Shown one piece after another: positions 2,646-48,000 of a DNA stretch of 64,000 nt. Numbering within the stretch: position 1 is the stretch's first letter; the number at the start of each line of letters is the position of its first letter. The notes under the pieces are model-generated. The model was given only the letters and a program-made list of their open reading frames with translations. It did no database searches and was not told the DNA's origin. The translations under genes were made by a program, and so were the position numbers. Source of the DNA: Sphagnum magellanicum (taxonomy: Eukaryota; Streptophyta; Sphagnopsida; Sphagnales; Sphagnaceae); assembly GCA_021904315.1 (NCBI GenBank), contig CM038918.1, forward strand, positions 11,237,349 through 11,301,348, written 5' to 3'.

Positions 2646-2689
2646 AATTGCCTTATTTTTTAAAAAGGGAAGTTTTCTAAATGAGACAT

Positions 2690-4563: not shown

Positions 4564-4639
4564 CTAGCAAGCTGTTGTGACAAGTATGCCAAAGAAATAA
4601 AGCAAAACATTAAAAAAGAAATCAAATCACATTTCCATT

Positions 4640-6783: not shown

Positions 6784-6835
6784 GTGGGGGAGACTATTGC
6801 ATGAACTAGGATTAGACATGAGTGCCTCACAACGA
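6784..6835 (+). repeat. Polypurine tract and truncated 3' LTR start
   Basis: AGTGGGGGAGA (6784-6794) is a plausible polypurine tract. About 30 bases later TGCCTCACAAC (6823) resembles the LTR start TGTCACAAC of the solo copy at 39885. Similarity stops after a dozen or so bases, so the 3' LTR is missing or replaced. Confidence 0.45.
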
Positions 6836-7103
6836 TCATGTGTCACAATTAGAACACCATTAAACTTTCTAAAAACCTATTTTTTCATGACAAAACATTT
6901 TGAAATAGATTGGCATTTTATACAAGACAAAGTAGAAAAGAAAATAGTCCATGTTAATTTTATGAGTATAACAAAGTAACTTGTTAATATGTTCACGAAG
7001 GCCTTAGGTCGAATTAAATTTGAAGCATGTAAAAGTAAACTCAATCCAAAGAATGCTAAGTCTGAAAGTTAGATAATGATCTAGTGAGTCTTTACTTAAA
7101 TAG
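6836..7103. other. Unresolved spacer
   Basis: AT-rich sequence between the broken chromovirus 3' end and the next LTR. No convincing coding or repeat signal. Confidence 0.4.
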
Positions 7104-7914
7104 TGTCGCAACCCCACTTTGAGGGAAGTGTGAGGTCGCCACTCACACTCCCGAAAATGGGACTTGGGAGTCTTCCGGGACTCTTGAAAACTTAGAGCGC
7201 GATTGCAGGGGTCAAAACACCTTGCATTGAGGTGTTCTTTATACCATTGGAAAGGTCTTGAAGTGTAAATGTCCAAAATGGCCTCACATGAGCCATTTGG
7301 ACATTTGCAACACAAGTTATGGTCGAAAGAAGAGCCGGGAGTCAAACACCAACCACTAAAAGTCAGGAATCGACCCGATCTTGGTGCGTGCAGGTGAAAT
7401 GTGACACACCGTTGGAAATCTCTTGAGGAGAACTACAACTTTGGTTTAAACCTCGTCCCGATCCGAGCTCATGGCGAGGAGTTATGAACGCCCAAAGTCC
7501 TGGGAGTCCAAACCGGGATAGTTTCGGGACTCCATTTTGGGAGTCCTGAGAAAAAAAACCATTTGGATGCAAGTGCGACGGAGAGCTGCAAAGAATACTA
7601 TATGGGGGAAGGTGGTGGCTTCCCCCGAATCCGGGCCGTGGTGAGTCAAGTGAGTCCAAGGTTGCCTATGGCTTGTCCCAACACTGAAAGTGTGCAAAAT
7701 GAGTTCTAACCAACTTGTTGATTGGATTTGGATGCAGGACCGAATAACTAAATAGCTTGTCCCTCTTCCTAGTCTAATCCCGGAACTTTCAGCACACCCC
7801 TCTTACCCCCTTTTAGTGCTGGAAGTTGGGAGCGTGCCCCAAGTCCCCCATATTTCCGCAACTTGAGTGATCTAGCCCCAACTTGGAGCTAACTAGGGAT
7901 TTGGGAGCGCATCA
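7104..7914 (+). repeat. Solo LTR, chromovirus-related, diverged
   Basis: About 811 bp from TGTCGCAACCCC to GGGAGCGCATCA. It aligns through its length with the LTRs at 595-1502 and 39885-40834, including CTATATGGGGGAAGGTGGTG near 7598 and CCAACTTGTTG near 7710. No primer site or coding region follows, so it is solo. Flanking pentamers (AATAG before, TTTAG after) match at only three of five positions, so the insertion is old or the ends are slightly misplaced. Confidence 0.75.
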
Positions 7915-25218: not shown

Positions 25219-26691
25219 GACCGGTTACGGGCATGCCAATCATGTTTTTAGGGTTAATGTACGTTCTTAGGTTACTATACGTTGTTAGGTGTTTTAGGGT
25301 TATGGCTTGTTTAGGGTTTTAGCTTGTTGACCGTTGTATAAAAGGCCAAGCTCTTCCCTTCTCTTGTTAGTTTTTCTAAAATTTATTTGTCAGGGAGAGT
25401 TTCCTGCATAGTTAGACTGGATTTATAGATGCTCATGGCGGCTATTGCACGGCCACCATTTACATACACTACGTTTTCTTTCTTTCTTTTTAATTTAATT
25501 ATAGAAAAACTACTCTCTATCACTTAATGTTGAAAGTCGCAGATTTTTCCTGGCTTTGAGTTTCTTGGGTTTCTTTTGCTTGTTGGTTTTTTGTGTTCTT
25601 GAGTTGATGCTACTTTTTTTCCTTTTTATGCTCTTGTACTGGAACTATAACAAGAACAATAACAACCATAACTAGTAGCAACGCAAGTGAGGGAGAAGGG
25701 ACATTAGAAACAAACTATAAGTTGTGAAGTTCTAAGTTTTGGAATTTCGGAGGGTTGAAGGAGTGAGCAACTCCAAAGCTTGTTTTACTGCCAACTTTAG
25801 GTCTTGGGAACACGCGCACACACACACACACACAAGGTTTGATTGTAATACAAGATCTACACCAAGTGATGCAACCCACATACATTTGTTTTCCTTATAC
25901 ATGGGTTTTGAGGTTAGTATCTGGTTTTTGAGCTTGCAATCATGTAGTGAGTAGCCCATGTAGCAGCTCTAGAAGAAGAAGAAGAAGAAGAAAAAGAAGA
26001 GTAATTTTTTAAAAAATTCTTTTCTTTTTTGCACATCATCGCCGTAGAGTTCATGGACATAGACCGCTCTGTAGCATTGCCATCGATGTAATTGTTGGTG
26101 TAATCAATTGCAATTGTGTTCCATTCCGTTCCATTTTGTTCACCATTTGTTGCCATTTTGTTCGCCGTCCATCGTAGTTATGTCCACAGATGTTTGTCCA
26201 CCAACGTCCGTCCGTCGCCGTTCATCCTCATTGACGCACCATATTCTTCAAACCATATGTATTGTGTACATACGTATCTGATACCTTTCCATTACGATTG
26301 TATTTAATTGCATAAATTGTGTTAGAACTTTGTAGTTAGTGTTTTGTATTGCTACAAAATTTTGGGGCATGGGACAACACCATGTCCTTGGATGATGAAA
26401 ACAATACTGTTTAATCAAAGCCAAGGTATCAGCTACGAAGTAACACACAATCATTTGAATCGATTTTTTTAAGCTCACGATGATCACGACGGTACCATCA
26501 AATTCTACAGCGCCATCGTCATCCAATACAACTCCTACCAAGAATTCAGGTTCAAGTTACATTACATCAATGATACATTAGAGTCCATTTGGAGGGGTTA
26601 ATTAGTGGGGTATGTATGTTGTCGCACCAACTTTCACACCATCACCATATATTCTGCTACAAGTCGTTACCTCTACACCATATACACCATG
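25219..26691 (+). promoter_or_regulatory. Presumed 5' LTR and leader of the methyltransferase retroelement
   Basis: This interval lies just before the gag start at 26692 and contains a TATA-like box (TATAAAAG, 25337) spaced as in an LTR promoter. It also holds a (CA)n run near 25812 and a (GAA)n run near 25973. I could not match it to sequence after the polypurine tract at the 3' end (from 36503), nor find a clear primer-binding site, so the LTR extent is unknown. Position relative to gag is the main argument. Confidence 0.35.
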
Positions 26692-27920
26692 GAGGTTAAC
26701 AGTTCCTTTGGGAAAATTGAGAAGTTCAACAAAATGCCAAGTATCATTTCTTTGAGGGAGTTCAAGGTAACTTTTTCAATCATGGTTTATGAATTAGAGT
26801 TCAAGTATGGCGCTAATTACACCGAGGTGTTTGCATTCAAACAATTGGCCCATTATGTGCATTATGAGGCATTGGATGTCTACAAGCAACATTCTCTGAG
26901 GATTTTGGGCGTCACCCAGATCCCTAATCCAGCTTATGCTAAAGCCATTGCCACCACCTTTCAAGCTGCATTGCAAGCTACCATTGCACATCATGGGATT
27001 GTGCCCAATAATCCAATACTTATTTCAGTAAACCTTTCTCCTCAACAACTCATTGTTGCTACCACAAACAATCCTCCCACCATCGATGCACTAACTTTTG
27101 CTGATCTAGTGGGGGAATTCTTTCGAGTTCTTAAGCTTGAATTCTCAGTCAAAAGTTTTTAAAAAAAATTTAGCTCACCACCTTCTTTCGGCAAAAGGAT
27201 GAAACCTTTAAGATGCTTTACATGAGGCTTCTCAAGCTTAAAGAAGATACTCATAGCATCACAAACCTGTAAGTTGCCCATTGGTATTGTTGGAAAGTAC
27301 TCCGACACTCCATGCGCAGGTTTTGCAACAGGTTTTTGTGGAAATTTGGAGACTCATACACTTTGTTAGATGTGTACAACATTTCTAAAAAACTAAAGTT
27401 GGCTCATGCACACTATGAGGCCAATATAATGAAACCTTCATCACATTCAAGGCCTAAGCCTCCACTAGCTGCGCCAACCAAATCATCACATTCTTCTTCA
27501 AGGGCTAAAACGGTGCATTCGGCTATATCCATCCTACCCACAAAGCTAGTAAATGCAACATTCTTTCCAAAGATCTTTTTTGTGATTAGTGTGGGAAAGA
27601 GGGACATCAAGAAGCTGTTTATTTTCCCAAGTTCCCCGAATGGAAGCAACTTCGATTACCACAGCAAAATCTACCATCATCTTCCATTGCCCCTCAACCA
27701 CAAGCCAAGGCACTTCAACCTTCCATCCAGGCTTTCCCCACCAAGGGTAATTCTAGTAAGAATGTTAAGAAGAAAGGGCACAATGTTGACAAGAGGGAGG
27801 TGCTTCAAACCCATGCCGTTCAAGTTCAAATTCTACAAAATGAACTCGAATCATTAAGGGCCCAACTTGTTAATCTAAAAATCAAGTCTTCCCACCCAAC
27901 TAGTCATGCCCAACTTGTAT
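26692..27920 (+). pseudogene. gag of the methyltransferase retroelement
   Basis: The ATG at 26692 opens a capsid-like stretch (MEVNSSFGKIEKFN; then FADLVGEFFRVLKL) that is open to 27160. After frameshifts it continues through RFCNRFLWKFGDS. The zinc knuckle reads CD, stop, CGKEGH, then V-Y-F-P (27575-27620): two Cys and the His are kept, one codon is TAG, and the last Cys is Tyr. A short predicted coiled coil follows (VQILQNELESLRAQLVNLK, about 27810-27880). Typical gag layout with an extra coiled coil. Confidence 0.75.
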
Positions 27921-28680
27921 AGGGTTTAGGATCACGGGAGAGACCTCTTAGGTCGTTCTATGGCTTCTCACACGATGCCATGGTTAGGGAATATGTTCTT
28001 TCCAATGCACACAATTCTAATCTCACACCAAAATTTGTCACTTTTTTTACCCTTCCTATTTTGCGACATAAGAGGCTAGTGTCGCACCCAAAGTTTCTGC
28101 CATTAGGCAGCTAATTCAAACTAATGGACTTGCATCTGGTTTAAGTCTTATTACCAAGGTTAGAGGAATTCAAACAGTGATGCCACAATCTTTTTGTCCT
28201 CTCAACACAAAAGAAGAACACACCTTGTTGATGAAGGGGCAGGAGACTATTACACCACAAGCTACTAGGGCATCGAATTCCACTAGAAGAAAAACATGTA
28301 TTTTCGAGTGCTCTTTGCGACTAGATTTTAGTCGCAAGAGACATTTTGCAACTAAAATCCTTTTAGTCGCCTAAGACAAGTTGCATGTGAAAACTAGTCG
28401 CAAATGACAAAAAGTATAAAGTCAACAAATACATTTCATCCTTTGACTCCATTGTATACGTACTGTCACATGCAACTAATATGCGACTATTTTGGTCACA
28501 ATTCAAGGCAAATCATGTGCTGCCACGTGTTTTAATATATGATTATTTATATTATTATTATTATTATTTTGAAATAATCTAAGACGTTCAATTCAAAGAC
28601 TTGGATGATCTTATATTATGGCACGTGGCCCAATGTAAATATGCCACGTGGCATTAAAAAAATAATTTAATAAAAATATT

Positions 28681-28915
28681 AATATTAGGTTGGTAGGTAC
28701 CTAGGTAGGTACATAAATAGGTGCCTACAATCCTTACCTACCTACCTACCTACCTACCTAGGTAAAGTAGTAAATAGGTAGGTTCTACCTTCCTAGGCTA
28801 AATACCTACTCATATAAGTAGGTACTTAAATAGGTAGGTACATAGGCTGACCTAGATGGGTAGGTCAAACTAAGTACCTACCTAGCTAGATAGATAAGTA
28901 GGTTGGGGAGGTATG
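28681..28915. repeat. (TAGG)n / (CCTA)n cluster inside the CACTA element
   Basis: Runs of GGTAGGTA and CCTACCTACC in both orientations, so the region can fold back on itself. The same kind of cluster occurs at 23890-24015. Confidence 0.85.
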
Positions 28916-30099
28916 TACTTAAGAATTGTGCATTATTTGTTTTTTTGTTTTGGGTTGAGCCTTTTGATTAGCTCATCCCATGTGCACAAACTTCTTAATG
29001 TGAAATTGCATAGGCACACCCCTTTGTTTATATAGTGTTCAAAATAGGAATGGAGAACAAACAATATGGGATAAGTTTTGAAGTTGCAACTTCCTTACAA
29101 ACTAAGTTGTAATTCCAAAGCTTTCTTCATCCCTTATTTTCTAGGGTTTTTAGATTTTTAAACAATTCAAGTACTAGATAATTAAATAATCATTTAGTTC
29201 ATAATGATGAAATTTACATATATTTAAATTATAACTATACACTACAAATATTCAGTATTCATTATCAATTACTTAAATAAGTAATACCTTCTTCATATTT
29301 GACAAACTAACTATCTAGTTACTCACAAGTTATTAATACATAATTCATAAATAATAAAATATTTAATTACTTTTCAGAATCTGATCGAGCTATATATAAT
29401 ATAATTAATATGCAATAAATTTAATGGTTATAATTTAAAATTAAATATTTTAAATATTTATTTTAAAATTATATATAATGAATTAAATTTTTTTATTAGG
29501 AAGTAAATTCTTACACAAAATTTTGAAGAATTATTATTCAACTAATTACATTATTTATTATATAATAACATTTATTTTTGTAAAAATTATTATAGGTCAA
29601 ATAATTTTTTTCTCTTGGTAATTATTAACTATAAATACAATAATTTGTTAAACATAACATTAATTTTCATAATTACTATAAAATTACTATAAAATATTTA
29701 TCATAGATGATTAATCACAGAATTTTTTAAGATAATATTATTGTATAATAATTCATGAAATTAAAATCAGTAAAATAATTATTCCAACTACACTATATTT
29801 TTTTCCAAAATTTTAATTCAGGTTTGAAGTTATAAATTAAAGAGTGTGAATAATTATGTTCAATTAGAAAATAATTATGCACATACTAATTAATTCTTAT
29901 ATGAAGTAATTACAATGATTTTAAAGTAATGTCACATTAATTTATTTAATTAATTTATTCTAATATAATAATATAAATTATATAATATACAAATCTATGT
30001 CATAACAATAATTATTTAGTATCACTTAGATTTAATAAACATAATCATTTATAATTATTTATAAAAGTGATTTATTGTGGATAACACTAGTAAAAAAAC

Positions 30100-31090
30100 C
30101 CTTGAAATTCAATCAATAATTTTTTGAATTAAAATATAAATTTAAGATTCCAAAATAGTAATTCAGAATTCAAATATCGGTTTTTAGAAGTTTTTAGAAG
30201 TTAAATAAGAAATTTCAGAATTGAAATGTTAATTTTCAGATTCAAATAATAATATTCAAAATTAAAATTTGCATTTGAAGACTTAATTAATAAATTTCTG
30301 AATTGAAATATTAATTCTGAGAATCCAAAATAATAATATGGAATTCCAATTTCAACTTTCAAGTCAAATAATTTCTTAAAATTTAAATTTTAAACTTTAA
30401 AATTCAAATATCAAATTTCAAGTTGAAATAAAAATATTTAAAATCAAGTTGCCAATTTTTAGAGTCAATAAAGTTTTTTAATTTTAAATAATAATTTTTA
30501 GATTCAAAAAAATAATTTAGAATTCAAATATCAGTTTTTAGATCAAAAAAGTTTTTTGAATTTAAATAAAAAATTTCAGAATTGAAATGTTAATTTTCAT
30601 ATTCAAATAACAATATTCAAAATTAAAATGTCCATTTTTAGACTCAATTACTAATTTTCAGACTTGAAGTATTAATTTTGAAAATCTAAATTTCAGGTTC
30701 GAATTAAATGATTATTTAAAATATAAATGAAAAAATTTCATAGGTGAAATATAAATTTCATATTCACATAAAAATACTCAAAATTAAATGGAATATTCAA
30801 ATTAATCCATTTTTATGATCAATTATAATTTTCTGAATTGAAATACTAATTTTTGGATTCGAAAATATTAATTTAGAATTCAAAATCAATTTTTAGATCA
30901 AATCAGTCTTTTTGAATTGAAAATATCATATTCAATCAAAATTTTCAAATTCAAATAATGTTTTAAACAATTGAAATAACAATTTTCAGATTCAAATATC
31001 AAGTTTCAAATTTTAATAAAATTTTTAAAAAGTTAAAATAACAATTTTTCATAATTGAAATATCAATATTCATATTTGAATAAAAAAATT
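30100..31090. repeat. AT-rich degenerate tandem array, ~361-bp higher-order unit
   Basis: Words such as AATTTCAGAATTGAAATG and TTCAAATAATAATATTC recur throughout. One long phrase at 30211 recurs at 30572, a period of 361 bp. It lies inside the CACTA element. Confidence 0.7.
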
Positions 31091-31524
31091 CAAAGTTCAA
31101 ATATTAATTTTGCGATTCATTATATGAACAATATACATATGTATGCATATATATATATATAATTTTAGTACATACATTAAAATATACTCGTATGTCATTG
31201 TAGGATACCTTTAGGATGTAACTAATTTGGTGACTATTGTGACTAATGGGACATATCAACCTATTAATGGAGGAGAATAAATGTAAAATTGATGTAACCG
31301 ATATGATGAAATTTCTAATAGTTGCATCATAGTTGTGAAAATGACCAAAATAGTTGAAAGTTGGTCTTGTAGTTGCAAATATTCTCAAATCTAGTCGCAA
31401 ACGACTATAAGTCGCATGTAGTCGTAAATTGACTAGTTACATTTTGGCTGATTTCTACTAGTGTTCTCATGTCCCAAGAGTACATGTACATCACGAAAAC
31501 ACATAATTTTCCACTAATCAACTT

Positions 31525-31812
31525 ATGGAGTGCCAACTTCAAATGCGTGAAGTGGCGCAAAAGCTTGTGAGTACACCGTTGTTTAGTTTTCAAGACTTGA
31601 AGCTAAGCACCAGGGACATAATTACAATACTAAAAGATACCCTGAACACTACATCAAGTTTTTTACTAATCCTTAATCCACATGCTATAGGGGTCCCATC
31701 CAACACCTTGGAAAGAAATTCGATTGGCTCACGTGTTGTAAATGGCATTCGTAATCTGGTCACTAATTTTAGCATGGTTAAACTAGTGGGCTCTCTATTT
31801 ATGATTCTATAG
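31525..31812 (+). pseudogene. Spacer ORF between gag and protease
   Basis: 95 residues (starting MECQLQMREVAQKLVS) in the same frame as the piece 28177-28280 left of the CACTA insertion, so the two halves were once continuous. No domain was recognised. It probably belongs to the polyprotein region upstream of the protease. Confidence 0.5.
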
Positions 31813-31959
31813 TCACATATCAAAAGGGAGCTAAGAACACCTCATTTGTGGATTTGTTACTCAACAAAGGCGTTGTGGATAACCATTCTTTCCACAAAGT
31901 TTTTCACTCATTTCTGAAGGTGGTGCCTATTGAAAGAACTTCCATCACCACCGGAGTTG

Positions 31960-32270
31960 CCATTGTCAACAATATCGAGTCAGCAATCTAGGTGGGAGGA
32001 TAGACACCCAAAGTGGTACTTCTTAATACAGGTGCCCAACCAATGATTCTTAGAGTTCAATTCACCAAGAAGATGGGCATGCTCGATTCCAAACTACAAA
32101 AATTTATGTGGCAAATTCGCACCATTAGTGGGAGCATAGAGGAGGTACTTGGGGAAAGCTTGGATCTGATTGCATTTAACTTCAATGAAACTATAAATCA
32201 GGAACTTTGCCTACATGCTAAATGTTTAGTCACCAATGCCACCAATTATGATGTGTTCATTGGGTAAGAG
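31960..32270 (+). pseudogene. Aspartic protease with D-to-N active site
   Basis: The frame reads VVLLNTGAQPMILRVQF and ends LVTNATNYDVFIG (32013-32264), matching retropepsin spacing (active-site D-T-G, then a hydrophobic C-terminal block before I-G). The catalytic aspartate codon GAC/GAT is AAT here (32025-32027), a G-to-A change that would inactivate it. The region continues as EALFPPGFTIDNWFEHA, a segment that links to the methyltransferase. Confidence 0.7.
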
Positions 32271-32439
32271 GCCTTATTTCCACCAGGTTTCACAATTGAC
32301 AATTGGTTCGAACATGCTCACTACCAAGTGGATTGAAAGACTGATGGCCACCTGGGATATAAACCTAAACCTTGATTTACATAGAAAGCATAGTGATATG
32401 GCTCACCATTGTATGCTCAAGGAAGCACATACCATTTAG

Positions 32440-33290
32440 ACATACAATTAATTCAGAAGAAGCATATGGAATTATTTGGCCCCATGGACTTCATCATTTT
32501 AAGTTGGGAGTGTCAAGGATTTTCCGCAGCTAGATTTGGAGAAGGCTTGAATGACACAAGATCCAATCTCTTCATGGACATGGTACGACTGATCACCTAG
32601 GCTTAATCCATTTCTCTTACGTTTGGTATGTAATTAGAACACCCCTTCTCAACTTGACCAGAGAGAGAAAGTCTAGGAGCACTACATGCTGGTCAAGCAT
32701 TACCTTGGAAAGTTGCTCCTATTCGATGTGGCGTAATGCGGTTCCTATGCGCACCAGCTGTGCAACTAGTGGACCAACCTTGCACCACTCTCAGTTTTGT
32801 AGTTGGCTTTGAGATACACCATTAAAGACCCTAACCTACATGTTTTTCACATATTGGATGATTAAAGCTCTTGCCAAATAGTAAAAAAACCTCCTTGGTT
32901 TCCTGCGAACATAATAGGAAAACCAAGAAGTGTTTGGCCCAGCTTTGTTTCCTTCCCAGGAGCACATGCCTTTCAAGGAGATGGACCAGGCCTAGTGTAT
33001 TGTCATGCTTTGGCCACTTGGGATGAATTAAACCCAAAAGAAAGAGAAAGGGCTATGGGGTTCCAAATTGGCACTACCACTCACACAAGGTGACTAAATT
33101 GGAATGTAACGTTCTACTAGTGAGAAGTATGGACCTAAACTCCCTTACATGGTTATTGGTAACCTGTGTGTTCTTTCAAATGTACACAACACCAACACCT
33201 AATTCAACCAACTTACAGTTTTGGCGATGCGACTACATGGCACCTCGACCAAGTACACTTGCCTATCTTCAACACTCTACATTTCACTTT
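32440..33290 (+). pseudogene. C5-cytosine DNA methyltransferase domain (decayed) within retrotransposon
   Basis: Transfers a methyl group from S-adenosylmethionine to cytosine C5. Motif IV is clear: GPMDFIILSWECQGFS with the catalytic Cys at 32511-32513, followed by GEGLNDTRSNLF. Motif VI survives as (E)NTPSQL (about 32638-32655), motif VIII as CGSYAHQLCN (normally Q-x-R-x-R; both Arg altered), and motif IX as PKERERAMGFQ (about 33034-33066). The C-terminal LNSLTWLL (about 33138-33161) is the motif X region. GKPRSVWPSFVSFPGAH and DGPGLVYCHALATW (32917-33022) fill the target-recognition part. SAM-binding motif I (F-x-G-x-G) is absent, apparently deleted around 32437-32440. At least eight stops are in frame. 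Confidence 0.88.
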
Positions 33291-33519
33291 TAATGTTGGG
33301 GGGAGGAGGTCCATGTAATTTGACTCAAGTTGTTTGTGATACACTAAGAGGTACATTAGTTTATGGAGAAATAATTACAACCTTCTACAAATCTGCGTAG
33401 TTGGATAGTGGAAAACCCAATACACTAGGTTTTTCAAACACATTTTCCAACTCCATTCCATGAGTTTCCAACTACCCTTTCATTATGGGGAACCAACTCA
33501 CCAAGAAGGAGAGAAACCA

Positions 33520-34370
33520 GGTCACAAACTTGTTAATTAAGTATGAGAATGTGTTCATATTCTCAATGAAAGACTTAAGTAGGTGTAAGACCATGTAGTT
33601 TTCTATAGACCTTACAAATGAGACATCCATCTATCGAAAGAGGCATAGGTTGAGCAAACATGAATGGAAATTAGTATATGAAAGATGCAAATAGCTCCAC
33701 GAGGTTGGTTTCATTCAACCATCAAATTTTGATTTCATAGCCACTATAGTAATGTTAGCAAAGAAGGATTCAACTGGATTATGGACTGAGAAAAGGATGT
33801 CCAGGGATTATAGGCCTTTGAACCTAGTTACACCTCAGGACGGGTACCCCATGGCCACCCTGAAGAATTGTTGAATAACATTAGAGACTCAAACATTTTC
33901 ACAATTATGGATTTGAGACAAGGCTTCAACTAGATTATGCTCGATGCAAAGGATTGCAAAAAAATGACATTCCATGGAAGCAACAAGTTGTGGGAATGGC
34001 TTGTGATGCCTTTTGGATTGAAGAATGCACATGTTTCTTTCAGCGAGTCATGGACTAGGCTCTCCAAAGGGCAAATTTCCTGAAGTGCTCCATAGATGAT
34101 GTCCTAGTGCATAGCAAGGGACTCATGCAACACTTGGCTCATCTTGAGGAGTTATTCAAGAAGCTCCATGAAGTTAATATGAAGATCCATCCTAAAAAGT
34201 GTGAGTTTGTTGTCACCTCAGTAGTTTACCTTGAACACAAAATTTTGCCAAATGGTATTATGGCTCATTGGGCCAAAGTAGTAGCCATTTTGGAGATGCC
34301 CAATCCTACTGATGTTCACATTTTGAGGAGTTTCATCAGACTATGTAATTATTACAAAATTTATGTCTAA
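33520..34370 (+). pseudogene. Reverse transcriptase of the methyltransferase retroelement
   Basis: Readable blocks in order: NLLIKYENVFIFSMKDLSRC, IYRKRHRLSKHEWKLVYERC, IQPSNFDF, AKKDSTGLWTEKRM, then the palm block (WLVMPFGLKNA at 33999-34028) and the catalytic CSIDDVLVHSKG (normally Y-I/V-D-D; here S-I-D-D, about 34090). KKCEFVVTSVVYLEHKILPN and RSFIRLCNYYKIYV finish the domain. Sequence and order are Ty3-like but clearly a different lineage from the chromovirus at 595-6835. Confidence 0.92.
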
Positions 34371-34509
34371 GACTTTGGTACTATTGTTCATCCTCTCTTT
34401 ACATTGTTAAAGAAGGATGTTGTTTGGACATGGAGTGAAGAGGTTCAGGAAACTTTCAACACACTCAAGGAAAAGCTTTCAAAGTTCCCCATTTTGAGGA
34501 GACTTGATT

Positions 34510-34930
34510 TGAGCAAGGTCTTCATTCTACACACTAACTAAAGTGTTCTTGGTATTGGTGCTATTCTTGGCCAACTTGATGAGGAAGGTAAAGAATATGT
34601 TATCGCTTATGTATCTCGAAATAATAAGGCTGAGAGCAACTATTCTTCATATGAAGGGGAATGTCTTGTTGTTGTATGGGCCGTCATACATTTCAGGCCC
34701 TATCTTTATGGCACCAAGTTCACTTTGTATACTAACCACCAGCCTATCAAATGGTTGATGACCAATGACAAGCTTACTAATAAATTAGTTCATTGGGCGT
34801 TTATATTTCAGGAGTATGAGTTCAAGGTTATTCATCAACCTGGTATTACACATCAAAACATGGATACCATGTCATGGAGACCCCTCACTACCTCTGAAGA
34901 TTTCTTAAAAGCTAGGCAAAACTTCAACTA
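34510..34930 (+). pseudogene. RNase H of the methyltransferase retroelement
   Basis: Reads FILHTN, stop, SVLGIGAILGQLDEEGKEY, then SNYSSYEGECLVVVWAVIHF, YLYGTKFTLYTNHQPIKWL and ending PGITHQNMDTMSW. This is the Ty3 RNase H order. Two catalytic aspartates (T-D-x-S and Y-T-D-H) are both Asn here; the Glu in Y-S-S-Y-E-G-E is kept. The D-to-N pair fits G-to-A decay. Confidence 0.9.
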
Positions 34931-35049
34931 GATTTCAGCAGTACATGTATCTTATGCATCTAGTTATCTTGCACTACTACAATGTAACCTAGTTGAACAT
35001 CCCATTGTGGATATATGGGAGGATTTGGACACTATGAGGTTTTTTCAAC

Positions 35050-36060
35050 ATGGGGGATACCCTCCCCAAGTTACATCAAGTCAACGAGATCGTATACAAT
35101 AGCAATCCAAACGCTACTTATGGAGGGACAATCACCTTGTCCGATGCTTACCACAAGGCAATAGAATGGTTCCTCCACCACATGAACGGCTTAGTCTTAT
35201 TTAGAAGGTACATTCGGAGCTTGGACACTTTGGAGTTAAACGTACCTATAGCCTTTTTGCTTTTCATTACCATTGGAGAGGTATGTATGCTCAAGTCTAA
35301 AACGTCATTGCTAGGTGTGAATAATGTGATAAAGTGAGAATTTCCTTTTCCTTTCGATAGCTCATGCTTTTTCCACTCCTTATTCAATGCATGTTCTATC
35401 GCTAGTCATGTGATTGAGTTGGAGAATTACCACAAACCTCTAAGGGTAATGTCTACATCATGATTATGATTGAACATTTTTCAAAGTGGGTTGAGGTTAT
35501 TATGCTATTAGACAAATCATCACACAACACTAACCAAGTTTTCTTACAATAGGTCCTAAGTAGGTTTGGGGCTAGTGCTTAATGCCTTATTGATCAAGGA
35601 TCAAAATTCAGAGGATAATTCCAAGATCTACTTGATCATGCTTTCATTGACCATCGCCGGACTTCAAGGGATCATCCCCAAGCTGATGGCCTTGTAGAGA
35701 AAATGGTTCAAACATGCAAAAAGGGATTTCGGAAGATTTACTTCATTGGGAACAAAAAAAATTGGGACCTGGCCCCACCATACATCGCCATGGGTTACAG
35801 GATGTTTAAACACGCTTCTTTATCTCATTTCTTTTCTTACTTTCTACTTTTTGGGAGACATCCCATTCCACCCTCTTCCATTACTGCTCAAATGGACTAG
35901 GTTGTGGACTTGGACTCCCTTGCCATTTGCCTTAGGGTCATCGCAGAGAGGGCTGCTCTATTCAAGAGGGTTATGCCCATGGCTGTGAAGAACTTGCACA
36001 ACATCGAGACACCTTATGGTATGCACACACATAAGGTGGCAGTTACAAACCTAAGGTGAA
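35050..36060 (+). pseudogene. Integrase of the methyltransferase retroelement
   Basis: The zinc-binding HHCC domain is visible as HSELGHFGVKRTYS and YHWRGMYAQV, then ARCE, stop, CDK (35210-35330). The core has CD, stop, VGELPQTSKGNVYIMIMIEH (D1), LIDQGSKFRG (D2, about 35590) and HRRTSRDHPQADGLVEKM (E, about 35655-35710). FGRHPIPPSSITAQMD follows. Catalytic acidic positions are largely kept although several codons have become stops. Confidence 0.9.
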
Positions 36061-36298
36061 ACAATTTGATGTTGATGACTTTGTGTATCTCTAGCGGCAA
36101 CCTAATGATACTTTAGACACTTCTTCTGGTCACATTATCTTGAGGATTAAGGCAATCAGGCCTTCAAGTGTGTTGGAGTTGCAAGGAGCTAATGAACGCA
36201 CAATTCGGGATCACTCAAAAAATTATGCCCCTTGCCACTTGCCGAACTTGGATCCTACCATCATCACGTTAACTTGGATTCCTCCATTTGACTATCCA

Positions 36299-36451
36299 TG
36301 TCAGATATGTCAGAAGACAAACAATGCTAATTAAATGCTACTTTGCGATAATTGTAATGGTGGATACCATTTATTTTGCCTCAAGTTGGAGCTCATTTAA
36401 GTTTCCGCCAGCATTTGGGACTGTTCATCATGTTATCACATAACACCTTGA
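36299..36451 (+). pseudogene. PHD finger at the polyprotein C-terminus
   Basis: Reads CQICQKTNNAN, stop, MLLCDNCNGGYHLFCLKLEL, stop, VSASIWDCSSCYHITP, stop. Spacing C-x2-C, C-x2-C, H-x2-C, W-x-C-x2-C is the C4HC3 signature of PHD fingers, which usually read methylation or the free N-terminus of histone H3. All eight ligands and the pre-Cys Trp are kept. The TGA stop (36449-36451) lies ~37 bp before the polypurine tract, so the finger is the natural end of the polyprotein, taking the place chromodomains hold in chromoviruses. Confidence 0.88.
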
Positions 36452-36487
36452 TTTCTACTTAGACCATGTCACACTTTTCCCAGTTCA

Positions 36488-36502
36488 GGTTTGGGGGGGG
36501 GA
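36488..36502 (+). other. Polypurine tract of the methyltransferase retroelement
   Basis: GGTTTGGGGGGGGGA lies shortly after the last stop codon, marking where the 3' LTR should begin (about 36503-36506). Confidence 0.65.
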
Positions 36503-36800
36503 TAATGAGAATTTCATTTCAGCCTCCTCTTGTGCATTGTATATATATGTGCGTGCATCTCTTTTTGGTTGATTAATTTCTACCTTTGACTAGTTTTAAT
36601 TTTTTTGTTTAATAGAATTTACTTTGGATTTACACCCTTATGACACCAAACATCATGACACTACACGTCACGACAATGTAGAACTGCTCCTAGAAGCAAA
36701 AGGCATCATAGTCCATAGTCCATTTGTGTGGTGGGCTCAACGTACCAAATTAATGGCAATGTATCAGATTTAAACTCCACCAAATCCACAAAATGTTAAA
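36503..36800 (+). repeat. Presumed 3' LTR start, truncated
   Basis: AT-rich sequence after the polypurine tract. A TG candidate start lies at 36506. No matching 5' copy was recognised, and the hAT-like remnant begins by about 36800. Confidence 0.3.
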
Positions 36801-38251: not shown

Positions 38252-39884
38252 AGTGCTTTGGAATTCAATAGAGCTTATAACACCAAGGTGCCTTGGAGTT
38301 CAAGAGAGCTTGCAACACCTAAGGTGCCCATTTCGACAAAATCTAAATCACCAAGGTTCAATGCATTAGTGGGGTCACATGGCACATGTGGTCCATGGGC
38401 GTTGCCTAATTCACTCGATGATGCAGAATGGAAAAATGACTTTGTAAATTGGACGATCTAGCACTAGACCCAAACCTAGACAAAGAAGCCACGTTAGGTA
38501 AATTTGATGATGCAAAACTAGACCTTAAATCAAACTGCACATTTGCCAAAAGCAAAAAACTAGAAAAAATGAGTTTGTTTTGAAATTTGGAGGCTTCATA
38601 GACAACATTGTGTGGAGCACAAATTGTTTCATGCATAAACAAATTGAAATTGGAAAGGTGATGAATCTTTCAACCCTAAACCCTTGGATATTGAAATCTT
38701 AAAGAAGGATTGATAATGTAAACAATGTTGTCGTAAATTGCACAAGTGAATTTGAAAGTTGAGAGGCTTTTATTTTGAAAATTGCAAGTTTTTATCTTAC
38801 AAATATTTTAGGAGTCACTGGAAAAGAATCTCAATGCCATGTCCATTGTTCCAAAGTCTAGCCTTTTTTTATTGCTTGTTCAACGATCATTTAGTGCTAC
38901 CACCATTAGATCATCGATTTGCTCTCCACATAGCATCACAAGTGAAAATGTTACAACTTGCAACATTGAGCACTCAAGGAGCAACCACCTAAAACATCAA
39001 TGACCTTGAAGAGCTTTGAAGTTTGCACATTAAACCTCCACATTCCTACAAAAAAATTAATATGACTTAATAAAAGAATGTGGCGAAAACAAATGGAGGG
39101 ATAGTGTGTATGGCAACACAAGTCTCCTCCTTTTTGTTGAGTGATGGCAATGGCACCTTTTGTGCCATTATGAAGTTGGTGATGTCCAACAAAGGTAAGC
39201 ATGAAATAATGACAATGAGTTGTTTTAGGAAATGTGGTAACAATGGGTGTGTACCTTGCAACGCAAACAGTGATGGATCCACGCCATGCATTGCTTGAGT
39301 GGCATCATGTGCTTCATTAAGGTCAAAATATGGCGATTTATTTTTAAATCCATTTTTTTCCAAAAGGCCTTTCACTAGCCCTTTTTTTTCATTTTGGCAA
39401 ATTTTCGCCACAAAAAAAAACGTTGATGTGGGGTGAGCCAATTTAGTTTTTTTTATTTGAAATCACACCATTTTTTTGTGTTGTGTTTGTTTTTCAATTT
39501 TTCATGTGAGTTTGACAATGTGACATAATTATTATCTTTTAATTATGATCAAATATTTCTTGAAATAATTAAAGTTGGTGCCACTATTAGATTGAAACAA
39601 TGAAAAAATTGCTTGTGAATTTTTAGATAGGATCTTTAATAGGTTTAATGCTCCAACCAAAGTATTTACCAACCAAGGGACATATTATATGTGGGAAGTT
39701 CCAAAAGTTGTGTGAGAAAACACTAATAAATCATTATGCAATCTCAAAAAACCATAATGAGGTAAACAAATTAATTGAATGAATGGTGTAAATTTGGTGA
39801 AATAAAGCTTGTGAAAACATGAGCTTCAAAATGACCATACTATATATTGGGATTTACAACTACCATGTTTAATTATAGGGTATA
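38252..39884. other. Intergenic, no gene recognised
   Basis: Short frames on both strands (for example 39067-39441 minus, 124 residues) have no recognisable domain. The first 400 bp (GGTGCCTTGGAGTTCAAGAG at about 38287; similar phrase near 38260) may be part of the hAT-like element. Confidence 0.45.
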
Positions 39885-40834
39885 TGTCACAACCCTAGCC
39901 TTGGGTTTGCGACCAAGGCAAGGGCTTGCGAAGGTGCAGGCCAAGAGTGAGCCTGAAAGTCACATTTCATGCTTTCGGGAGTGTAAGAGAATGTGAAAGA
40001 ATGAATCCCCACACTCCTAAATGAACTCCCACTTTGGAAGTTGGAGTCATAATGGACTCCCGAATCTTCAGAGGGAAATTGCAAGCGTCAAAACTTATTG
40101 GATTGAGAAGTTCCTTGTATCATTAGAAAGCTCTTAACACTTTGGGAGTTGGAGTCACAATGGACTTCCGAATCTTCAAAAGGCGATTGTAGGGGTAAAA
40201 ACTTATTGGATTGAAAAGTTACTTATATCATTGGAAAACTCTTAGAACGTAGATGTCTAAATGGGGTCGCATGACCCATTTGGACACTTAAAACACAAGT
40301 ATGGCCAAAAGAAGGGCTGAAAGTCAAATTACCAATTGCTCCGATTTCTTTGCGTGCAGGTGACATGCCATATATCATTGGAAAGATCTTGACAAGGGCT
40401 ACAACTTTGCTTTAGATCTCATCTCAATCGAAGGTCTTCGGGTAAAATTATGGGCTCCCAAAGTCGCGAGAGTTTCAACTTTGGGAGAGTCCCGGGACAA
40501 AATGACATTTGGGTGTTAGTCCTGTGGCTAGGCATAAAGTATACTATAAGGGGGAAGGTGGTGACTTTCCTCAAGTCCGGGCCAGGGTGAGTCTTGTGGG
40601 TCCGTGTTTGCTCGTGGCTTGTCCATGCACCAAAATGCTCTAATTATGCACTAACCAACTTGTTGTTTGGTTTGTGAGAGTAATTGAATTACTTGTCAAT
40701 CCTCCTAGTCCCATTTTGGAGTTCCAACACGCCCCTTTACCCTCAAAGTGTTGTGAGCCTCAACTCCTTTTCCTTCCGTTGTCTTCACCTTTGGACTCGT
40801 AGTTGAATCCATCAAGGAGCTTGGGGGTGTGTCA
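39885..40834 (+). repeat. Solo LTR, chromovirus family, with GTATA target duplications
   Basis: 950 bp from TGTCACAACCC to GGGTGTGTCA. It is flanked by GTATA on both sides (39880-39884 and 40835-40839), a perfect 5-bp target duplication that fixes both ends. It aligns along its length with the LTR at 595-1502. It contains an internal ~108-bp tandem duplication (CACTTTGG... at 40030 and 40138), absent from the other two copies. Formed by recombination between the two LTRs of a former full element. Confidence 0.93.
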
Positions 40835-43824
40835 GTATAGGTTTGGTTAACAAACTTATCTTGAATTGTTTTCATTATATTTTTTATTGTTTGGTTGTGA
40901 GTTCAAATTAGTAACTTCAATTTGATGAGATGCGATGATAATAATCAATTTGAATGATTTAAATGTGTGATTTTAGGCAAGTGTGATCAATGAATAATTT
41001 TGTTTCAATGTGCAATTCAAATACATATGAAATTTTTGGCAATTATTTAGATTAAAATATGTTATGTTATATTTTATTTGAAGAGGTAGTTATTAGCCTT
41101 GAGTTCATGAATTCAAAATGAAAGATTACATGTATAAAAAAAACAATATTAACTACATTGCATGTGTGAAAGGTGTTACATTCTCAAAGATTGTTGTTAG
41201 AAGGTTAAGATGGTCAAACATGGAAAGACCACATGCAGATGTCATTTTCCTAATGTGAATGGCTAAATTGATTCATCTTCGGTTTTTTTTCATGTTGACT
41301 TGTGGTGTATGTTATGTGGGTAATTTCCAAGGACAACCATTATGTTGATTTGTAATCGATGTTCCAAAGGTTGACATATGGGATGTTTGTTTCCACTATT
41401 GGAATAAATATTAGTCAAAAATAGTTTTACCCTTAATGAAAAAAATAAATTAAAAAACTTATGTAGTTAAATATAATAGGGAGTATCCTAAATTTTTATC
41501 CATGATGATTCATAATTAACTAAAGATTTGGGGGATTGTAATTAAACAATTATTGATAAGGCCATGTTTACACCTGGCCTATTAGTCTTTTAACGTTACA
41601 TCATAAACTTACCAATTTTCATAAGTTTGTACAAATTTCATGCCAAATCTAATTTTTATAAGTTCATATAAAAATTGCATGAATTTCATGTTATGTTAAT
41701 ATGAACAATATTTGTACGTATTCAATATGTTAAATATTTAAATGGAAAAGACATTATTTTTTAATGACATACATGAATGTTCATTTTTAATACAAAAAAT
41801 ACATGGTTTTATGCAAAATTATGTCATGATAATTGCATAGATTTAGTTAAAATGTAAATTGTACATACTTCATCAAAACATCATAAGTGGAAAGACACAT
41901 CATTTGGACAAAAATTATATGTATAAGATTTTTTTGTGCCATTTTATATTTTGAAGCTCACGAATTTTGCACGGACATGTTTGTTTTATAATTTTTGCAC
42001 CAATTTCATGATATTGAAAGGTTATGATGTAGTTTTAAATGTTCTTTAAATTTTTATTATATCAATAAATGCACCCACACATTATATTAAACACAATAAA
42101 ATGGCTTTGGGCTTGTGATTGCTAAAAAGTCAAAAAAATTAATAAAAATTTGTTCCAACAAAAGAAGATTAAAAATTTAAACATATTTTAAAAAATTGAC
42201 AAAAAAAACTCAAAAAAAAAAAAAAATCTATTTGCTTGATAACTTATTGTTTGGCCTTGGTGGCATCAAACCATGTTTAAGTTAAAACTAGTGTGAACCC
42301 TGTGCATAATGCACAGGTGTGTTATTTCAACAATGTTTGGTTGATATTTTTGGTTTTTAAAAAAAAACTTTTCTTTTCAAACAACTGTCTGTGGCCACTG
42401 TCCGTCCGGAATCACTATCACAGACAGACCAAGTGAATTAACATATATGATTTATAATTTGTGATTGTTGAATTGTTGGTGTTATTGTTGCACCACTAAC
42501 ACTAACCTTTCATGTCAAGAAATTCCTTGAAGATGTAAACTCCTTAGTAGAAATCCTATAACCTCATCTTCTGGGACTACACAACTTCCCCCCCTCCAAA
42601 ATAAAATTAGTTTTCGCAATTTTATAAGCAAATATAAATATAACAAACACAAAAAATTTATGCAAGGTATGCTTGTAGTTGGGCAACTTGGTTTTTATGT
42701 CATTGTTGTAATAATTGTGCTATTATTGAATTGTTAATCTTATAACCAATGTTTTACAATGCCACCAAACAAGATTCGGTACGTAATGATTTTCTCCAAT
42801 GCTTCTCTATGTCATTCCCAAAATCTCGAATAGTTGATAAAACCAAAATTTGAAATGAATGAATAAACTTTCTTGATTTGTGAGCTCTTTGTTTTGTATA
42901 ACTACAAGTGTTGTTGTGGCTTACTTTGAACTTACAATAAATTGTTTTTGTTACTCATATTGTTGTTGTTTCAATGCATGTTGTTAATAATGAACATACT
43001 TAAACTATGAAAATTACAACCATCGCGTTGGTGCAATCATGTAGCATTGCTTTTATTTAATGGGTTGTTATCTTTGTTTTTGTTAGAAATTATTAACCTT
43101 ACTTTGCACATTGCTTACTCTAACCACATTTGGTAGTGTTAATGTTCCAATGTTTTGCAACAAGATCAAGAAGATGATGTTAAAGCAAGCATGATTGAAA
43201 TTTCAATTGCAGAAGAACAAACGCTTGCATATATATTCGTGCTTCGATCAACGATACAAGCACAAAGTAAACAACATGAACAAAGCATAAAAATGAACAC
43301 AAATCATTTACCTTATGTGATGACTTTCAATCATCATTACTAATGAAATATTTTTTAATTTTCTATGCACTACAAGAGAATGTGGTTTTTTTCACACAAA
43401 AAATTGTCACTCGTGGCACATGTTTTAGATAAACTTTTTGGTTTCATTCATTACAATGTACAATATGTAACATTTATTATGACATACATTACATTAAAAT
43501 TATGATTTCATATTAAGTTATGGCACATAGAAACATCTTAAAACTTAACATCTTAGGGAAAAAAAGAAGGTTGAAAAAAACTCGAAAAAAGGAAAAAAAA
43601 TCGCCACTAAGGTAAAATTTAAAAAATGGAAAGAAAAAGCATGAAGACCTGTCCTCTAAAATTTTCCCCCCAAAAAAAATTAAAATATAAAATTGAATAG
43701 GTACAATTATATTAATTATTCATAATTTTCAAGTTGTTTTCCAAAGCAAAATTGAACTGGGCTGATTCTCATAGGCGGAATTGGCAAGGGTGACGGATTC
43801 TGGCATAGGTACTCATGGAATCAG
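40835..43824. other. AT-rich intergenic DNA
   Basis: No gene recognised. A palindrome CTGTGCATAATGCACAG occurs at 42300. CACTACAAGAGAATGTGG at 43369 looks like a CACTA-type terminus, but no partner end was found. Confidence 0.45.
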
Positions 43825-44170: not shown

Positions 44171-45073
44171 CTCATCCTCACCACATCTCTTCTCTAGCTC
44201 TCGCAATCGCCATTCTCCTCGCGTCTCCTACGACGTTGTCTCTTTCGTCCTCACTTCACCAATTCCTGACCTCTCTCACCTCCGCAAAATTTGAAGCTAT
44301 CCCGCGCAGTATACTTCTTTTTCTGCAGGTAAATAGATTGTAAGTACTTGGGACAAGCAGCGACGTCGAGGATTTCGGAGCTCACAACTACTTTGTTGCA
44401 GATCGGATTGCGAATCCCTCGTGCTTGAAATAATAGGTTGGTCTTCGCTTTCTCCATTTTCCTCTTTTCTTCTTCTCTCTCTTGGTGGATGTGACTGAAT
44501 TTCCTGCTGTATTGCGTTTTTGGTCTGTGTATGTTTGGCGGGCTCCGTTTTCTTATTGTAGCGCTTGGGGCGATGGTTTCGTAATGTATCTCCGGAGAAG
44601 CGTTCTTTGGTGAGCATGGTCCTTGGGATCTTCTTGCCGGCAATCTATATTTGAGAGACTCTTTTGTTTTTGGGGTTTCAAGGATCTATTGTACTCTCTT
44701 GCTGCACTGGTTCTTTGTCTTCGAGCTTCTAATTGTCTTGGACTTCTGTGCTGTATTCCTGTTTTTGTCTTTATTCCTTTTTTCCTTAATGTAGGAAGAA
44801 TGAATGAGTGAGTGAGCTTGCTAAATGGCAGGGTTGGGAATCAAGGAGACGGATCAGGTCTCAAGACAGTAAGTAGATCTGGCAATTTTTGTTCTCAAAG
44901 CTCCATCAGCAAAATTACATCAACCAGGGACAACAAATTACCAATCTTCGAAAACAGAGCTTGGATTCCTTTTTATGCTTGGTGTCCAATGAGCAGCTGA
45001 AGCAGCACATTCTGCTAGAAAATCACAATTGACTAAGTAGCCGCCTTGGAGGCTTTCATTCACTTTTGCACAC
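44171..45073 (+). other. SEC24 5' leader region, probably with intron(s)
   Basis: Pyrimidine-rich, GC-higher sequence between the promoter block and the start codon. Splice-donor-like sites occur (TGCAG/GTAAAT at 44327) and an acceptor-like TAATGTAG at 44790, so a 5' UTR intron is likely, but exact boundaries are not decided. No convincing conserved upstream ORF. Confidence 0.4.
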
Positions 45074-48000
45074 ATGGGGAGAGAGGGAGAATGGTCAGCC
45101 CCTCCTGGAGCTCAAGTGTATGCTGCTGTCCCACCTATGAAACCCTATCAGGAAATGCAGCATCCACCAGGAAATGCAAGAGGTCCTCCGCCACAATTTG
45201 CTAGACTTCCTCAAATTGGGGGACCTTTGCAGGGTGGCTCTGTAGCTCCTCCTCCGCAGTTCTCTGGTGCCGCTCAATTTTCTGGAGCTGGAGGTGCTCA
45301 GTCTTCAAGTGGAGCAGGAGGTTCAACCTTTGCAGCTCCTCCTAATGCAGGTCCTCCAGGTTCGGGACATAACTATGGAGCTGCAACTCCCCAACTTGGC
45401 ATGGCATTCCGACCTCCACCAGCATCCACCATGGCACGAGGACCACCAGGCCCACCTCCAGGTTAGTAATGTTCTACAGAAAAGACTCAGTGTTCTCCTC
45501 TAATAATGACGCTTTCTTGCAATTAGCTGCTAGTATTGAGACCAGTGGTCATACCTGCTTGACACATATCAATATAGTCCACCAATGACCATCTGGGATT
45601 CGGATTCTGTTTCAGATTTTAGGATGCAAGCTTACAAACAGAAAGACAGGTTGAAGGATCAAATTTGCTTGTCCATTTTTCATGGGAGATTGTATTGTTA
45701 CTGTACATACCTGATGTCTGACAAGCCTACTTATCAGACAACTCAGCCGCAGTAAAGCTCTGATTGAAGAGAAATTTTTGTCACATTCAGGGAGTTTGGA
45801 GATTTGACTAATTTGGATTTCCCAGCTCAAGTTCTTATAATCTTTCCTTAACCCTCCTGGGGTTTGTTGAGCAGTATTTTGTCCCTGCATGTTAGGAGCT
45901 TGAAGGGTTTAATTCAAAAACAGGAAACTCTAAAACTGAAGTTGTGGGTTACTGACTGAGATATGCACCATACGTCCTCAAAAGATCAGACTCTAAACAT
46001 TCTCAACCTTGTTTCTCTCTTGTCTTCCTTTTTTTCCCTTGTTTTTTTTTGTTCTTTTGTTCTTTCTTTTGTAGTTGCTCTTTCTTCTTGTTGTCCTTCA
46101 TGATCTCCTTCTCTTTTAAGGTTTTCTTGACCTAGGGAGCATCATTGCCGAGTATTCCTATTGCTGCCAATGCTGTGGCTGAAGCTCAGGATGTTTATGT
46201 TTGACATTGCTCTCCACCACTGCTGGAGCTGATGAAGTTAGTGGGGATGTGATGGTAGCTGGCCACTACCATGCATGGTATTGGTGAAGGTTGTTGAACA
46301 CATATGACTGTCACTGGTTTCAAACTGCTCCTCAGTTTTTCCCTTTTCTCTTAAGGGTTGGATTTCCTCCTTTCCTGTTCACTTGTAGGTTGTTGGGCTC
46401 CTTACTATTGGATCATCTCTATTCAGGTTGACTTATTATAGAGAAGTTCTTTAGCACTTATGAAGATGTTGTTTTTGGGAGGCAAGCACAGAAATTGAGG
46501 ACAGAGAGCTCTTTGATAACAGATAAGTCAGTTTCTTCTTGCCACCTTGGCTGATAGCTTGCCCACATTCTGCTCTTTGGGCCAATAAAACTGACTTTAG
46601 AGGCTTCAGCTCTCTGGGTCTGTCATGGAAACAGGCCCTTTTACAAGTTGGGCTGGGCTCAGAACAAATTGTCAGTTATTTGATTCTATTTGAGCCAGAG
46701 AGAGCAGAAGCTCTAACAACTGCCACTGAGCCAGCCAGTTGCCCTTGTTGACTGCAAATTTGCAGCTTAATTTGAGGAACTTGCATCTCTTGAGGTTTGG
46801 ACTGATAAGATTTCCAACAAACTGCTCAGCAAGAAGTGTAATTTCACAGGTGACTGCTAGGTTCTTTGGCAGCTGCACTACTTTGTCTCGTTGGTATTAG
46901 GAAAATGGTGTACTCCTTTATGTGAAGATTGGGTGCTGTTGAGTACACACAGTCTTTTTGCTTTGATGGAGGTCTTTGTCAGTTCTAAGATATGCAGGAG
47001 TGGTTTGGGATCTTCAGTGCTGCAGTGTTCTTTGTTGTTTTCAAATACAACAGTCCCTGCCTGTCCCACTGCTTTTGACGTGCTGTCCCAGCATCTGATG
47101 TAAAAAGAATTGATATGTAGTGTATTACTATTTGTAAGTGGCCTGCTTGCCATGGATCTCTTATCAGTTTTCATGAAATGGTATCTCATTGCTTGAATCA
47201 TTTCACCTCACACAAATATGCCCTTTGTAGGTTCTCATGGGCCCCCTCCAGGTGCAGCCCCTGGTGTATATGCCCCTACCAGTGGTCCATCTGGCAGACC
47301 AGCATTCTCTCAGCCACATTTGTCTCTGCCATCATCTCAGCCATCAAAGCCAGCACCAGGCCCCCCAACAGGAAGCAGTTTGTACTCACAAGGCCCTCCT
47401 CAAGGACCTCCACAAGGACCTCCACAAGGACCACCAGTGGGGTCATTTCCACAACAATTCTCTCAACAAGTTAGACCAGGAATGGGTCCTCCACGCTCCC
47501 AGTTCACTAACCAAATTGCAAGCCAGGGATCCTCACCATATATGCAGCCACCTTCACAAGTGCCTTCGCTAGCCCAACACTTGGGAGGTATGTCAGTTGG
47601 AGGACAGACAACTTTCGAGTCCTCAAGTGGCCCTCCTCCTCCTCCAAACTTCTCAGTGCCAGCTCAGCCTTCCAGTGCCTCACCTTACTCAGCTCCTCCA
47701 ACATGGCAGCCTGGGCAGAGGCGTGTGTATGCAGATGGTTACAGTGCACCACCTCCTAATGTGAGTGCTAATTCTAAACATCTTGTTGTGGCTCTAAGGA
47801 TGTTAATCTCTAAGCTTTGCATCCACAGCCCTCCTCCTTTCTCTCTCTCACAAGGCCTACTCTCTTGTATCTCACTCTCACTCTCAATGCATGAATGCCA
47901 TGTGGGTTTTAGGGCCTGTTGAGGATATGGTATTTTGCTTCCCTCCCTACATTGCTATTCCTCAACTCTTCTTGTCCTGTCCAACTGACTGTGGGTCCAT

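Follow-up and report, generated by a model that had tools for sequence, protein, structure and literature searches.

Whether a retrotransposon of land plants can carry its own DNA methyltransferase (DNMT) together with a chromatin-reading domain, or whether such a combination is an accident of one locus, is the question raised by a 64,000-nucleotide stretch of Sphagnum magellanicum (contig CM038918.1, positions 11,237,349 to 11,301,348; the whole stretch is hereafter called the window). A degenerate Ty3-type element is found at 26689-36448, and its parts run from gag through protease, C5-cytosine methyltransferase (MTase), reverse transcriptase (RT)-RNase H and integrase to a PHD finger. The initial annotation had described a Ty3-type element with a MTase lying behind the protease and ahead of RT and with a PHD finger following the integrase, and the window sequence and its relatives bear this out. 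We contend, with a probability of roughly three in four, that the sequence represents an old and dead Ty3/Gypsy copy, in which the Pol polyprotein contained a DNMT3-like MTase flanked by protease and RT, and the integrase ended in a PHD finger.

Domain order and decay of the window copy

Ten open pieces of the window were scanned separately against Pfam. Matches were obtained to DNA_methylase (PF00145; 32397-32597, E 2.2e-8, 34.4 bits with a cut-off of 22), RVT_1 (34059-34367, 4.1e-9), RT_RNaseH (34542-34928, 1.7e-28) and PHD (36335-36400, 21 amino acids, 1.2e-5), so that the profile search proposed earlier for the MTase and PHD segments recovers both; the protease piece matched weakly (0.12), and the remaining five pieces gave no Pfam match beyond noise. 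The anatomy was mapped by segment-wise tblastn of relatives, which are predicted proteins designated here by P and four digits, onto the window (Table 1). P0242 spans gag from 26689 plus the protease region to 32436, and P0241 extends from the MTase to RNase H. Integrase through PHD is covered by P0122 and by P0129, in which Pfam recognizes Integrase_H2C2 and rve; P0121 was aligned alongside P0122. The gag alignment to P0242 reaches 28293, its final 13 bases falling inside the insertion described below, and the RNase H open piece extends to 34931.

Protease, RT, RNase H and integrase follow one another in the order of Ty3/Gypsy elements, with the integrase last, and gag carries CCHC knuckles, which are located at residues 290 and 312 of P0242 and are decayed in the window. 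The RT is closest to Ty3 among solved structures, where the top match of P0241 is Ty3 RT (4.2e-62), followed by 8r0s, 'Enzymatic polyprotein' (1.1e-45), and by retroviral entries; the RT tree is limited to 8 rows. The protease motif reads LLNTGA in the window and LLDTGA in P0242, whose own protease match (3.8e-5) lies below the curated cut-off. The short motif upstream of gag listed in Table 1 is presumably part of the initiator-tRNA-Met complement.

Table 1. Parts of the Ty3-type element and of the insertion within it, in window coordinates
Feature	Position	Strand	Remarks
Possible primer-binding site GGTATCAG	26425..26432	+	By eye; 8 bases, weak
gag	26689..28280	+	Frameshifted; tblastn P0242 residues 1-549, 40-72% identity by segment
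Nested CACTA-type DNA transposon, foreign to the retroelement	28281..31463	.	3183 bp; splits gag from protease
gag-protease linker and aspartic protease	31465..32366	+	tblastn P0242 residues 548-848, 39% and 71% identity
Deletion point	32436..32439	+	The window copy lacks about 153 residues, comprising linker and MTase motifs I-III
Remains of DNMT3-like C5-cytosine MTase, motifs IV to X	32439..33197	+	58-66% identity to P0241 by segment
Linker, RT, RNase H	33269..34931	+	Frameshifts and stops; segments of 33269-34739 are 65-81% identical to P0241
Integrase zinc-binding domain and core	35022..35996	+	70% identity to P0129 residues 11-337
Integrase C-terminus with PHD finger (C4HC3) at its end	35993..36448	+	78-79% identity to P0121/P0122
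G-run past PHD, possible polypurine tract ahead of 3' long terminal repeat (LTR)	36493..36501	+	By eye

The window copy is a dead, old fossil that cannot make a working enzyme. Residues 847-870 of P0242 align to 32365-32436 and residues 1024-1102 to 32439-32675, while residues 871-1023 are without counterpart, and the matches of P0004, P0024, P0063 and P0068 likewise begin only at 32439-32442; because all of these alignments start or resume only there, the S-adenosylmethionine-binding motifs I-III are gone. The MTase motifs IV, VI, VIII and IX reported earlier are indeed present, and the codon of the catalytic Cys in WECQGFS begins at 32511 in the printed frame, as had been stated; motif VIII, however, reads HQLC as against HRLR in P0241 and P0242, both arginines being lost. 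Of the DNMT3-class motifs I, IV, VI, VIII, IX and X, the window copy therefore lacks motif I, deleted along with II and III, and the arginines of motif VIII. All eight C4HC3 zinc ligands of the PHD finger are readable, as the initial annotation had it, together with two in-frame stops.

Altogether 41 stops occur in 2026 aligned residues, although some of the stops may stem from segment ends that were read out of frame, and 23 of the 41 sit where the relative has Gln or Trp. Many relatives have Gln, Trp, Cys or His in place of the motif VIII arginines, and these changes and the position of the stops would fit C-to-T decay. A methylation-driven decay special to the element was considered and rejected, as the observed/expected CpG ratio of 0.29-0.32 in the element indicates depletion no stronger than in the window as a whole (0.31).

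The AT-rich sequence that divides gag from protease is an insertion in its own right, of the CACTA type. Its ends are CACTAGAAGAAA and, inverted, CACTAGTAGAAA, which are alike at 11 of 12 positions and form CACTAG...CTAGTG; a target duplication, TTC, is located at 28278-28280 and 31464-31466, and the flanks abut in the gag-protease frame. AT-rich degenerate repeats lie inside the transposon at 30.1-31.1 kb. An inverted match to the left end of the transposon (95% identity over 235 bases) is located at window 1-235, where a second copy probably runs off the window.

Relatives, enzyme class and PHD finger

A search with the MTase read-through yielded 314 proteins at E<=0.01 among 602 candidates, the best being 74% identical over 95% of the query; the matches listed (best 120 of 314) include one row from Sphagnum compactum. 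With the integrase-PHD read-through, 498 of 698 candidates passed E<=1e-3, the best at 76% identity over 94%; a PHD is listed in all of the first ten, and nine Sphagnum magellanicum and two Calypogeia fissa proteins are among the matches listed (best 120 of 498). Full-length relatives amounted to 17 proteins at E<=1e-3 among 1261 candidates, including eight from Marchantia polymorpha and one from Sphagnum fallax, and 15 of the 17 have a methylase domain listed. The attribution to a land plant thus agrees with relatives in S. compactum, S. magellanicum and C. fissa, and with more distant ones in M. polymorpha and S. fallax; the nearest named relatives point to Sphagnum or some other bryophyte. 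Judged by these predicted proteins, which are better preserved than the window copy, the element family is real and not confined to the window copy, having members in mosses and liverworts. Viral contigs and prokaryote genomes gave pattern matches, none of which was confirmed as a relative, as is expected for a plant element.

The joins between domains recur within single predicted proteins, namely gag-2xCCHC-protease-MTase in P0242, MTase-RT-RNase H in P0241, protease-MTase-RT-RNase H in P0248 (Marchantia), and integrase zinc domain-core-PHD in P0129 (Calypogeia), P0148 and P0223. Since P0241, P0242 and P0248 each read through from the MTase into the adjoining domains in one frame, a separate insertion of the MTase is rejected. 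The initial annotation had also asked for the same domain order in another copy; this expectation holds for the joins, whereas a second copy with the full gag-to-PHD order was not found among the retrieved relatives, which came as protein fragments. P0244 (1649 aa) is a one-frame polyprotein of the order RT-RNase H-MTase-integrase-PHD, its MTase standing after RNase H, unlike that of the window element and of Marchantia P0248.

Two further groups of proteins were encountered. P0254, P0255 and P0256 contain CCHC knuckles and a MTase with only 31-34% identity to the query, and may represent a far branch of MTase-bearing elements. P0246 (Marchantia Mp_8g17980), whose database name begins 'DNA (cytosine-5', reads as a retroelement gag-MTase protein.

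The enzyme class was assigned by profile ranking against solved structures. P0241 alone matches DNMT3A (3.5e-5) besides Ty3 RT; a profile of 17 close rows gives DNMT3A first (4e-7), followed by 4onj (4e-5) and HhaI (1.5e-3), and a profile of 32 diverse rows gives DNMT3A at 7e-20, DNMT3B at 7e-16, 4onj at 2e-10, DRM2 at 2.5e-7 and HhaI at 5e-6, where 4onj is taken by us to be a plant DRM. Neither DNMT1 nor CMT occurs among the 48 solved-structure sequences at E<=1e-5 with the 32-row profile. By this ranking DNMT3 is the nearest class to the MTase, ahead of DRM, DNMT1/CMT and bacterial enzymes, and a DNMT1/CMT or bacterial origin is disfavoured. PF00145 scores above its cut-off in P0004, P0002, P0059 and P0024; P0031, in which just the later portion of the domain is present, does not reach it.

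Residue conservation was counted in 137 aligned hits (120+17), each site being covered by only some of them. All 42 covering sequences retain the motif IV Cys, and the motif VI Glu is kept in 47/52, including 17/17 of the long proteins, in which the two motif VIII arginines are kept in 15/17 and 17/17. Motifs I, IV, VI, VIII, IX and X are all represented in the relatives of the family.

The PHD finger is recognized more strongly in the relatives, seven of which match at 6e-13 to 8e-11 (P0122 at 6.3e-12) and P0244 at 1.7e-9. Intact relatives such as P0122, P0129 and others have all eight C4HC3 zinc ligands, and some have lost at least one (e.g., P0148, P0127 and P0219). The nearest solved relatives are KMT2D, KMT2C, KDM5D, WSTF, Lid, DPF2, KAT6A, ATXR5 and BAZ2B, with KDM5A/B and UHRF1 ranking further down, and several of these solved PHD fingers read the unmodified H3 tail. 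The conserved histidine of the element's PHD is preceded by Gly-Tyr, unlike that of many H3K4me3 readers, which have Trp in front of it.

Phylogenetic analysis was carried out with two small trees, both having long branches, which the program flagged in the MTase tree. In the 28-row MTase tree the window copy falls in a 13-row Sphagnum-type group (100/99), within which its place is not resolved, S. compactum P0034 being nearest by path; the eight Marchantia rows and S. fallax P0257 form a separate group (100/100). In the 8-row RT tree, three rows of which are under half filled, the MTase-bearing elements form one group (100/100), apart from Ty3 and another window element that lacks a MTase. 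P0244 adjoins the Sphagnum type in the MTase tree (94/90) and P0251 in the RT tree (90/96), and neither tree is firm enough to claim domain swapping in this protein. Nor do the trees settle one capture versus several.

Possible roles and competing explanations

The sequences show the domain order, the DNMT3-type character of the MTase, the conservation of catalytic residues among relatives and the full set of PHD ligands, whereas enzyme activity, histone preference, and the timing and target of methylation are inferred. Gag-Pol would carry the MTase inside the particle, beside RT and integrase. The PHD on the integrase, according to its sequence class, would anchor the integration complex to nucleosomes whose H3 tail is unmodified, and the MTase would add cytosine methylation to the new copy or to the target. 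Each insertion might then be born in, or quickly given, a silent state, with less damage to the host, whose maintenance methylation would copy that state. This mechanism as a whole, with a PHD reading unmodified chromatin and a MTase writing methylation at new insertions, is offered as a tentative proposal, at clearly less than even odds. It is conceivable, falling not far short of an even chance, that one old Ty3 lineage has kept both a writer (the DNMT3-type MTase) and a reader (the PHD on the integrase) from algae to mosses and liverworts while shuffling the place of the MTase in Pol (before RT in bryophytes, after RNase H in P0244), which would amount to a self-contained read-and-write epigenetic retrotransposon, able to direct its insertions in land-plant genomes and to mark them.

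Several points weigh against these readings. The window copy is dead, its MTase reading alone gave only noise against solved structures (DNMT3C 0.28, HhaI 0.37), and no LTR pair was detected by blastn or by local alignment against shuffles, nothing scoring above shuffled sequence. No single frame with the window's exact protease-to-PHD order is present among the retrieved relatives, P0244 being the only one-frame case with both MTase and PHD, in a different order. MTase and PHD were seen in separate proteins of the named plants, the former in Marchantia, Sphagnum compactum and S. fallax and the latter in S. magellanicum and Calypogeia, so that the union of the two in one plant element rests on the window DNA; moreover, the relatives are predicted proteins, whose gene models may splice over stops. 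The AlphaFold model of the MTase (alignment A1) has a mean predicted local distance difference test score (pLDDT) of 30.1, too low for the model to be of use. Across the 120+17 hits the motif VIII arginines are kept in only 48/66 and 45/67, because many copies have decayed. The residue preceding the catalytic Cys is Glu in 28/42 sequences and Pro in 12/42; Glu is unusual at this site, and MTase activity therefore cannot be taken for granted. Finally, no experiment was found in the literature searched for any step of the mechanism.

The Glu before Cys, present in P0244, P0241 and P0242 among others, could mark a MTase that has lost catalysis and is kept in Pol for structure or nucleic-acid binding, much as a spacer. 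We regard this as improbable, given that the same three proteins keep the Cys, the EN glutamate and the motif VIII arginines, which would be unneeded for mere binding, and that lineages with Pro before Cys exist (Marchantia, P0243, P0251, P0254). Catalytic residues kept across divergent lineages imply that the MTase serves the element somehow, and this leaves room for a role in anti-silencing or masking, in which it would methylate the complementary DNA (cDNA) to resemble host DNA, or compete with host RNA-directed methylation and redistribute marks so that the element stays expressible. The text of de Mendoza et al. is compatible with such a role, as it reports purifying selection on DNMTs of this kind and leaves their function open (PMC5890265). 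Although nothing in our analysis separates masking from self-silencing, the class of the PHD would suggest chromatin reading at integration rather than masking of cDNA, and we consider the masking role unlikely, if worth keeping in mind. A chance juxtaposition, whereby a MTase gene and a PHD gene fell into one Ty3 element at this locus, would suit a degenerate copy with one unrelated nested insertion and no other full-order copy retrieved, but it is hardly credible in view of the in-frame joins in other predicted proteins and species and the grouping of the MTase-bearing RTs described above.

The dead Ty3/Gypsy copy with DNMT3-like MTase and PHD-ended integrase can be compared with several known systems. 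DNMT3A, DNMT3B and DNMT3C are the best relatives of its MTase among solved structures. Host DNMT3 enzymes pair the catalytic domain with an H3-reading ADD finger, whereas the reader of the element is located at the integrase end of the polyprotein and not beside the MTase. Chromoviruses of the Ty3/Gypsy group likewise have a chromatin-reading domain at the integrase C-terminus, which is a chromodomain there and a PHD here; no chromodomain was matched in Pfam at E<=0.1 in the eight scanned relatives that reach the integrase C-terminus. Host plant DNMT3 genes of non-flowering plants, as described by Yaari et al. (2019, PMC6453930), have a DNMT3-type catalytic domain like that of the element, and differ in bearing DUF3444, while the MTase of the element is fused into gag-pol; DUF3444 was absent from the Pfam matches of 13 scanned MTase relatives.

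Among retrotransposons, DNMTs have been reported in dinoflagellates and the charophyte Klebsormidium (de Mendoza et al. 2018, PMC5890265), the single primary report on such elements in the literature searched. KnitGypsy-Dnmt3 of Klebsormidium nitens is, like the window element, an LTR Gypsy with a DNMT3-class MTase in Pol and conserved key residues, but its host is an alga, its repeats are described as DIRS-like, and the word PHD is absent from the main text of that article (PMC5890265), the comparison being one of descriptions only. No sequence named after K. nitens is among the matches listed for the relatives. The dinoflagellate SymbioLINE-Dnmt and SymbioDIRS-Dnmt3 are retrotransposons with their own DNMTs as well; these are a LINE and a DIRS element, not Ty3, and are described there as independent acquisitions (PMC5890265). 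A 2019 article states that retrotransposons with DNMTs are absent from land plants (PMC6338049), and the relevant passages of PMC5890265, PMC6338049 and PMC12344493 agree with the earlier remark that such elements were reported only from dinoflagellates and a charophyte alga. In the literature searched, subscription papers and preprints being outside its scope and articles being represented in part, neither a land-plant DNMT-bearing retrotransposon nor the combination with a PHD was found. A DNMT3-bearing Gypsy element is hence already known from a charophyte alga, and what appears to be new here is that such an element occurs in land plants and that its integrase has a PHD tail.

The Marchantia polymorpha relatives, with annotated proteins in a tractable model, would allow the direct question why an element carries the enzyme with which hosts silence it, and the PHD on the integrase is a possible chromatin-targeting device. 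MTase-bearing elements could also inflate the host DNMT gene counts in bryophyte annotations, as the case of P0246 illustrates.

Other features of the window

The second Ty3-type element is located at 598-7810, with its RT at 3182-3736 and LTR-like direct repeats at 780-1399 and 7201-7810 (71%); no tblastn match to the MTase was found within it. LTR-like stretches related to those of this element recur at 39885-40750. Remains of a second, different integrase lie at 39506-39788, and an integrase C-terminus/PHD-like end at 41204-41428, with about 30-45% identity to relatives; the two are apparently split by the intervening LTR-like stretch.

An intron-containing Sec24-like (COPII coat) gene occupies 45000-57000 on the plus strand, where 56226-56558 matches a solved structure at 3.4e-6 and the rest was recognized by eye. 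Together with the exons of an apurinic/apyrimidinic (AP) endonuclease at 61519-62360 on the minus strand, it would fit a plant source. The exon at 61890-62360 best matches a chloroplastic enzyme (5.1e-20), again in keeping with the land-plant assignment, and that at 61519-61707 was recognized by eye.

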